This document shows positions 9,542-44,926 of a stretch of 64,000 nucleotides of DNA, piece after piece. How positions within the stretch are numbered: the first letter of the stretch is position 1; the number at the start of each line of letters is the position of its first letter. The position numbers and the translations under genes are program-made. This DNA comes from Desulfobacteraceae bacterium (GTDB lineage Bacteria > Desulfobacterota > Desulfobacteria > Desulfobacterales > SKZT01). The stretch is taken from NCBI GenBank assembly GCA_011389745.1, contig JAABTQ010000004.1:1-64000 (forward strand). Reading direction: 5' to 3'. The notes under the pieces are model-generated. The model did not search any database. It saw nothing but the letters and a program-made list of their open reading frames with translations, and was not told the DNA's origin.

Positions 9542-10015
9542 ATGAGGCTTCTTAATTTGATAGAGTCAGTACTGTTCAGGTCAAAAACCGTTTCTAAAGA
9601 GGTTCAGGTCGAATTAAAAGAGATCATTTGTAAAAGAAAAAAAAAGGACTTTATTGATAAATTCAGAACTAGAGCCGTAGGCACCGAATACAGCAATCCT
9701 AACGGAAGTCGTCGCCAGGAGGCCATCCTGCAGGTAAAAGAGAAAGATAAGGTGCGTCTAGTTTGGGCGGAAGGCCAATCCGGATCTAAAGATATTGTAT
9801 ATTTGGTGAAAGGTGGTATCGGGCGCGAACTGGTTATGTCAAACTGTTTTGGAAGACTGGATGATAAAATAGCAGCCCAGGTAATCCAGTGGTTAAACAA
9901 AGAAAATATTGTCACCGCCGCCAGAGTTGTAAAAATTACCGGTGGAACATCAAAAAATCCCAAACTAGGGTGTATTCTGGAATTGGAAACGTATCAGGGA
10001 CCTAAAGAAAGATAA
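9542..10015 (+). CDS. Stand-alone HIRAN-domain protein
   Basis: The 157-residue protein has a basic helical N-terminus (residues 1-40). A single HIRAN-like domain follows, starting at FRTRAVGTEYSNPNGSRRQE and ending with AARVVKITGGTSKNPKLG. HIRAN domains bind DNA 3' ends or stalled forks when part of HLTF/Rad5 helicases. Stand-alone bacterial copies are poorly characterised. A DNA-repair or damage-sensing role is inference. The SD-like GGAG lies about 10 bases before the ATG. No partner gene is obvious; the gene converges on the Cys-rich peptide gene. Confidence 0.65.
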   Translation: MRLLNLIESVLFRSKTVSKEVQVELKEIICKRKKKDFIDKFRTRAVGTEYSNPNGSRRQEAILQVKEKDKVRLVWAEGQSGSKDIVYLVKGGIGRELVMSNCFGRLDDKIAAQVIQWLNKENIVTAARVVKITGGTSKNPKLGCILELETYQGPKER

Positions 10016-10080
10016 TTGGGTGAAAAATGTGGGAAAAACGGAATGCAGCTTTTGGATTTTATTTAAAAATCACCACGCTA

Positions 10081-10110
10081 ATAGGATTGGGCGAAATCGC
10101 CCAATCCTAT
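10081..10110. terminator. Perfect 14-bp inverted repeat between convergent genes
   Basis: The arms ATAGGATTGGGCGA and TCGCCCAATCCTAT are exactly complementary with a 2-base AA spacer. It lies between the ends of the HIRAN gene and the cysteine-rich peptide gene. There is no strong T tract on either side, so it may be a bidirectional terminator or RNA-stability hairpin. Confidence 0.55.
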
Positions 10111-10125
10111 TGCATACAAAAAATA

Positions 10126-10281
10126 TTAACAACAGCGGCAAGAGCTAACATAACAACCACATGGATCTAAATAACACCCACATGGATCCACAACATAACA
10201 GCAGACGGGATCCGCGTTGGATACTTCCTTTTTTTCGTCTTCATCTTTTCCGCTGTCTTCGGTTATTTTTTTTTCTTCCAT
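10126..10281 (-). CDS. Cysteine-rich small protein with DPCGCY heptads
   Basis: The frame runs from ATG at 10281 to TAA at 10126 and encodes 51 residues. A strong Shine-Dalgarno GGGAGG lies 7 bases before the ATG. Residues 1-25 are highly charged (KKITEDSGKDEDEKK) with no signal peptide. Residues 26-51 contain nine Cys in near-heptad units: VDPCGCY at 31-37, LDPCGCY at 38-44 and VSSCRCC at 45-51, preceded by a diverged ADPVCCY. I do not recognise a family. A charged leader with a Cys-rich C-terminal core resembles a RiPP precursor or a metallothionein-like metal binder, but no maturation enzyme is adjacent. The ribosome-binding site and ordered repeats argue for a real gene. Confidence 0.7.
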   Translation of the reverse strand: MEEKKITEDSGKDEDEKKEVSNADPVCCYVVDPCGCYLDPCGCYVSSCRCC

Positions 10282-10537
10282 CAAAATTACCTCCCATATA
10301 TAAATAAAAGCAGGATGATTTCAGTTTCTTAAAAAACCTGGAAACTGTTTATCGTTTTACGAACCACAATTTCCCCCAGGTCAAACAGATATTCATTGTC
10401 TTTTTTCTGATAAAGCAACATTCAAATACTAAATTAATTGTTTGGCCTATTATCAATAATTGTTATCTTTTATGGCCTGTCAAGTCAAAAAAAATCGAAT
10501 GATATCAGAAGAAGTTTTCAAAGGTTATATTTAATTC

Positions 10538-17245: not shown

Positions 17246-17821
17246 CTATTGAAGGACAAAATGTGCCCGTCGGTTTCTATCCCATGCTTCTTCGTTGCTA
17301 CCAGGATCAACAGGCCGCTCTTCACCGTAACTTATGGTAGACAAACGGGAACTCGAAATACCAAGATTCATCAAAAAAGCCTTCGCGGCTAAAGCTCGTC
17401 GCTCACCCAAAGCAAGGTTGTATTCCGCAGTTCCCCTCTCATCGCAATGGCCTTCTATAACAACAGAAACCCCGGGATTTGACCGCAAAAATTCAGCCTT
17501 TTTCCTTAAAACCTCCTGTGCATCAGCCCGAATCACAGATTGGTCGAAATCAAAATAAATATCCTCGTCGATAATCTGCTGCTGTTGTTGCGACATGGTT
17601 TGCCTTTTTTGTTCTTCCATGAGACGCTGCTCTTCGAGTGCCCGACGTCTGGCCTCTTCTTCTTCAGCCAAGGCTTTTTGACGGGCTGCATCATACTGAT
17701 CGGCATCAGTCCCAATAAGCGATACATCGGGTTGTACCTGCTTTTTTGAACACCCTGTTGTCATTAACAGGGCCGGTACCACTAGCAACAAAACCAGAAC
17801 CATCCAAATCCTTTTCTTCAT
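17246..17821 (-). CDS. pal: Peptidoglycan-associated lipoprotein Pal
   Basis: The 191-residue lipoprotein has a lipobox ending at Cys24 (LLMTTGC). A Glu/Gln/Arg-rich helical spacer covers about residues 40-85, and an OmpA-like peptidoglycan-binding domain follows with VVIEGHCDERGTAEYNLALG. Pal anchors the outer membrane to the wall and binds TolB. A Shine-Dalgarno GGAGGA lies directly before the ATG. It follows tolB by 28 bases in the usual tolB-pal order. The acidic/basic coiled insert is longer than in E. coli Pal. Confidence 0.95.
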   Translation of the reverse strand: MKKRIWMVLVLLLVVPALLMTTGCSKKQVQPDVSLIGTDADQYDAARQKALAEEEEARRRALEEQRLMEEQKRQTMSQQQQQIIDEDIYFDFDQSVIRADAQEVLRKKAEFLRSNPGVSVVIEGHCDERGTAEYNLALGERRALAAKAFLMNLGISSSRLSTISYGEERPVDPGSNEEAWDRNRRAHFVLQ

Positions 17822-44512: not shown

Positions 44513-44728
44513 TTATTGATTTCCAAAACCGTTTTGTCCGCCACAATCCGGGCACTGCCATGTAATAGCATTGCATGACATACCCCACAGATTTTCATCC
44601 ATGCACTCCTGGCAAATCGCAAAACCACATCTGCAGTGCCAACAAAAACGAAATTGCCCTCCGCAGCAATGGCATTCAAAACTTTTGAGCCTTTTTCTCC
44701 GTATTCGTTTATATTGTAAATTATTCAT
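44513..44728 (-). CDS. Small zinc-ribbon protein
   Basis: The 71-residue protein has Cys/His clusters CHCCGGQFRFCWHCRCG, CQEC and a final CPDCGGQNG, enough for two zinc sites. A basic N-terminus (RIRRKRLK) precedes them. I do not recognise the family. The clean spacing of Cys pairs supports a real gene, though no good ribosome-binding site precedes the ATG. It converges on groEL. Confidence 0.6.
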   Translation of the reverse strand: MNNLQYKRIRRKRLKSFECHCCGGQFRFCWHCRCGFAICQECMDENLWGMSCNAITWQCPDCGGQNGFGNQ

Positions 44729-44926
44729 AAATCAGAATCATCTCATTTTTTTAGTTCAAATATTTTTTAAGGCTTGCTTGTTGTTTTGAGTATTTCATGA
44801 TAGAAAATTAATTATCGAGAACATGTCAAACCTTTTAACTTACCGAAATGATAATAAATTTACCTTAATTCATCATGGCATCACTGTCAAGATGCAATTT
44901 CTAATCGAAAGAAAGGCAAAAGGCTA

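Follow-up and report, generated by a model that had tools for sequence, protein, structure and literature searches.

A 51-residue, cysteine-rich peptide encoded in the analyzed window (the 64,000-nucleotide stretch from position 1 of contig JAABTQ010000004.1, Desulfobacteraceae bacterium) was confirmed to be the product of a real coding gene under purifying selection, which is strongest in its C-terminal core. The family to which it belongs is unnamed and has so far been found in only one order of Desulfobacterota, and we consider the chances about even that it acts as a stand-alone, cytoplasmic, metallothionein-like metal-thiolate protein. The minus-strand reading frame, its GGGAGG ribosome-binding site, the nine cysteines and the heptads were all recovered exactly as the initial annotation had described them (Table 1). 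The translated product is MEEKKITEDSGKDEDEKKEVSNADPVCCYVVDPCGCYLDPCGCYVSSCRCC, where every one of the nine cysteines lies within the last 26 residues, the heptads VDPCGCY and LDPCGCY are exact, and the third unit reads VSSCRCC. The ATG at position 10281, preceded by GGGAGGTAATTTTG, is the sensible start; beginning at the TTG at 10284 would lengthen the product by one residue.

Table 1. Features of the peptide gene in the window and of companion genes at other loci.
Feature	Coordinates	Strand	Basis
Cys-rich 51-aa protein CDS, TAA stop included	10126..10281	minus	ORF, homologues, selection
Charged N-terminal segment, residues 1-25, probably disordered, fast evolving	10207..10281	minus	pLDDT, pN/pS, composition
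Cys core, residues 26-51, two DPCGCY heptads and CRCC end	10129..10206	minus	pN/pS, Cys columns
Ribosome-binding site GGGAGG	10290..10295	minus	sequence; family comparison
Candidate sigma-70-type promoter TTGACA-16-AATTAT (tentative)	10456..10483	minus	
Strong hairpin shortly 3' of stop	10079..10112	minus	fold -29.3 kcal/mol, z -7.2
Companion protein, about 58 aa, paired Cys, no Pfam match	L098:1271-1471	minus	
Companion protein	L102:3249-3440	minus	
Companion protein	L141:8361-8600	minus	
Companion protein	L142:8713-8901	plus	
Companion protein	L143:8757-8966	plus	
Companion protein	L145:769-1029	minus	

The earlier statement that this is not random sequence was borne out. Across 40 trials with first-order Markov versions of the window, no ORF of at least 40 aa with 8 Cys in 26 residues was obtained, and in homologues from other genera the codons change synonymously while the pattern persists; chance is therefore excluded. 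Pooled pN/pS was 0.13 in the core and 0.50 in the leader over 21 codon-aligned comparisons, some of which share members, and these values are only indicative since many individual dS values were saturated. In pairwise comparisons, 93 of 107 Cys columns were retained, and in 39 of the 93 the codon had swapped between TGT and TGC. The leaders of 31 members showed no consensus. Conserved heptads with a variable leader, as had been predicted, were thus observed, and the core-to-leader difference and the TGT/TGC swaps are those of a coding gene with homologues rather than of non-coding DNA confined to one strain. Besides the peptide, two ORFs of the window passed the same Cys count (17559-17681 on the plus strand and 44513-44731 on the minus strand), but both are different in kind, and no other Cys-dense ORF in the window had the layout of the peptide. 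The small ORF at 44513-44731 (CHCCGGQFRFCWHCRCGFAICQEC), with at least 8 Cys in 26 residues, looks by eye like a zinc-binding domain.

The initial annotation had pointed to other Desulfobacterota as the place to look for homologues, and single-sequence and profile searches recovered them from further genera and families within the same order. At E 0.1 or better, the family was present in 59 of 389 genomes of the order, and homologues of the same layout occurred in as many as 35 of the 150 genera sampled; the weakest matches of this list are doubtful, and reading by eye confirmed about 40 loci. The distribution across the order was patchy. A restrictive pattern scan of about 85,000 species gave 10 confirmed loci, all labeled as Desulfobacteraceae, Deltaproteobacteria, Desulfosarcina, or the Olavius algarvensis Delta 4 endosymbiont, and among 395 genomes drawn from across the phylum there were two matches, namely the genome of the window itself and one genome of the same order. 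Hence, no homologue outside the order was found in either search. Additionally, neither the peptide nor 31 homologues had a credible match in Pfam or NCBIfam, no relatives of the peptide were found by a PDB sequence search, by plasmid tblastn or among viral contigs, and a literature search for the heptad sequence found nothing.

Four related subtypes were distinguished, all of which combine a charged segment at the N-terminus with a Cys core at the C-terminus. Subtype A, which includes the window peptide, has two to five units and follows CCYVVDPCGCYVDPCGC..CCC; subtype B reads CGCFxVVDACGCRVVDPCGCYVSQCCC, subtype C reads CCYxVVDGCGCVVGTYCCDGPDMSxCR, and subtype D reads LCCCYIxDxxGxYxDPCYxPVxxCC. 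In profile comparison, A/B was related to C with probability 93 and to D with probability 96, where composition contributes to both values as the profiles are short and Cys-rich. The CCC motif formed the C-terminal end in 25 of 33 A/B members. Besides Cys, the core conserved Asp, Pro, Gly, Tyr, and Val, and in most units the Tyr adjoins a Cys. An in-frame TGA (selenocysteine) was seen in none of the cores read. The strict DPCGC unit, the CCC terminus and the restriction to one order would also suit a metallochaperone or storage protein for the supply of one metal or cofactor, not a general buffer. However, the core holds from 7 to 12 Cys across members, a single Cys is missing in some of them, and no client enzyme was linked to the peptide, which leaves this role quite unlikely. 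The number of units also differs between members, which fits a modular ligand and not a precise active site.

In a metallothionein-like protein, a metal-thiolate cluster formed by the core would enclose metal ions of soft or borderline character, or else reactive sulfur species, with [V/Y]DPCGC as the repeatable ligand module. Solubility of the core would come from the charged, disordered N-terminal segment, which no enzyme would need to recognize, and a strong Shine-Dalgarno sequence and the gene's own transcript end would suit a protein made in quantity. Metal or reactive sulfur binding, the location and the amount of the peptide are what we infer from these features. The selection focused on the core, the retention of Cys, a core composition of 34% Cys, the lack of an apparent signal peptide in the sequence, and the lack of a linked enzyme all argue for such a protein. 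On the other side, classical metallothioneins do not usually have a Tyr beside Cys, as most units do here, and the core has few CxxC motifs. The distribution is patchy, the recurring neighbors included no identified metal transporter or metal regulator, and the upstream regions yielded no established common regulatory site. The low-confidence AlphaFold (AF2) prediction for the peptide (pLDDT 60, with about 50 in the leader, and no confident fold) neither helps nor hurts.

The known bacterial metallothioneins (SmtA/BmtA/PmtA; PF02069) are similarly small and Cys-rich with CxC pairs, and usually have no dedicated modifying enzyme. The peptide differs from them in its lack of a PF02069 match, its tandem heptads, its charged N-terminal tail and its Cys arrangement (CC, CGC, and CCC). 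Cys makes up about one third of the 26-residue core, and CxC and CC are abundant. The peptide is also Tyr-rich (9% of the core, where few aromatics would be expected of a bacterial metallothionein) and has essentially no His, while Lys, Met, and Trp are likewise almost absent. Since it is not a member of PF02069 by sequence, we propose a metallothionein-like function rather than membership of that family. PF02069 itself was found in none of 40 genomes of the order, such that the metallothionein role would be unfilled in them. Sulfate reducers inhabit sediments rich in sulfide, in which the supply of metals is extreme. A Cys-heptad protein that is unannotated, occurs in many genera and carries strong translation signals of its own would be a natural candidate for a metal or sulfur buffer in these organisms, and it is small enough to synthesize.

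The initial annotation had offered two possibilities, a RiPP precursor or a metal-binding peptide, of which metal binding is the better reading. As a RiPP precursor, the leader would recruit a maturase encoded elsewhere and the Cys/Tyr core would be modified, for example by thioether, thiooxazole or Cys-Tyr links, to give a metallophore or signal. The leader-plus-core layout, the short repeated units and the Cys beside Tyr are consistent with this, but most RiPP precursors show the opposite of the pattern seen here, in which the core is conserved and the leader drifts, and this favors a stand-alone metallothionein-like protein. The earlier remark that no maturation enzyme is visible nearby extended to the family, as none was linked in about 40 neighborhoods. 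Enzymes acting in trans were compared between 20 genomes with an A/B peptide and 20 without it. MNIO (PF05114) occurred in one of the 40 genomes and was missing from that of the window; PqqD occurred in 14 of 20 genomes with the peptide and 12 of 20 without it and did not track the peptide; and YcaO occurred in 35 of the 40, with two carriers lacking it. SPASM radical SAM proteins were present in all 40 and hence uninformative, although for the same reason a shared enzyme could act in trans. None of the RiPP enzyme families tested tracked the peptide gene, and a RiPP precursor is thus considered unlikely. Bufferin- and methanobactin-type RiPPs, which depend on MNIO, resemble the peptide as Cys-rich peptides with a possible metal role, but they differ in their need for an enzyme missing from 39 of the 40 genomes and from the loci read, and in the signal peptide not apparent here. 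Similarly, Cys-rich peptides of the ranthipeptide type (SPASM/PqqD) share the leader and Cys core, but for the family no adjacent SPASM or PqqD gene was found, the leader is unconserved, and no NCBIfam precursor model matched.

The genes flanking the peptide in the window were assigned by Pfam to housekeeping functions (a threonine ammonia-lyase-like PALP/ACT-domain enzyme, DnaJ, an M48 protease, a MerR-type regulator, a bactofilin, RuvB, and a YgiQ-like radical SAM protein). The YgiQ-like gene lies about 4 kb away and has no counterpart in the other neighborhoods compared. Among the roughly 40 neighborhoods, recurring proteins reflected only synteny between close relatives or large generic families. 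A 157-aa protein without a Pfam match is encoded convergently with the peptide gene in the window (9542-10015, plus strand).

The family ribosome-binding site is mostly GGAGGTGAT or near it, and a near-consensus Shine-Dalgarno sequence was found in most members. The promoter candidate is tentative because such sites are no commoner than in shuffles. The hairpin beyond the stop likely marks the transcript end, though no U-run follows it; stems of at least 12 bp were found 3' of 27 of 41 members, compared with 6.5% of stretches drawn at random from these loci. A short ORF rich in one amino acid and followed by a hairpin also recalls a regulatory leader ORF, in which Cys codons would attenuate a downstream gene. 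This is extremely improbable, as residues other than Cys are conserved and the next gene downstream in the window is on the opposite strand; an attenuator leader peptide was rejected because the downstream gene is not conserved across neighborhoods. Upstream of family members, a motif search exceeded the score of a small shuffled control with a weak consensus, which relatedness of the sequences alone may explain, and no operator is claimed. An Rfam scan around the peptide gene gave sub-threshold matches only.

In six loci, the gene immediately downstream of subtype D encodes a second small protein, with the pattern CC..E..L...L..CD...HxCYRxAARxSGxRxRxC. A profile search also found its relatives near subtype A in three genomes, where the gene is convergent (L027), divergent (L070), or about 1 kb away (L082). 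This companion was present in 30 of 194 genomes, in some of them without the peptide, and was not detected in the genome of the window. Its co-occurrence with the peptide had an odds ratio of 6 (p 2e-4, not corrected for phylogeny). The AlphaFold model is a confidently predicted two-helix hairpin (pLDDT 92.8) with insignificant structural matches in a fold search, and the family is uncharacterized. Genes of aconitase, TrpS, SodB, and UspA, named from sequence inspection, occurred near subtype D in varying combinations (L098, L100, L105, L140, L141, L142, and L143).

These neighbors and the adjoining hairpin bear on the main rival to the metallothionein-like function, with which it overlaps: a sacrificial or relay Cys core would guard Fe-S enzymes when anaerobes meet oxygen, in some species with the hairpin as co-worker. 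The bacterial metallothionein PmtA has been linked to oxidative stress (PMC11237414), which is consistent with this protection. However, the subtype D neighborhood may be inherited synteny, the gene in the window has no such neighbors and its genome no detected companion, and Fe-S protection is regarded as doubtful. An order-specific thiol system built from two unrelated tiny proteins is likewise considered rather unlikely; in it, the repetitive metal-thiolate protein with DPCGC units would exchange metal or sulfur with a paired-Cys helical-hairpin partner in those lineages that have one, and the system would stand in for classical metallothionein in these anaerobes. The companion offers an independent handle on the function of the peptide. 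In genome G044, a third small Cys-rich ORF (RCEEHCVYEWVDC...) was observed directly upstream of the companion gene (L154:1282-1464, plus strand).
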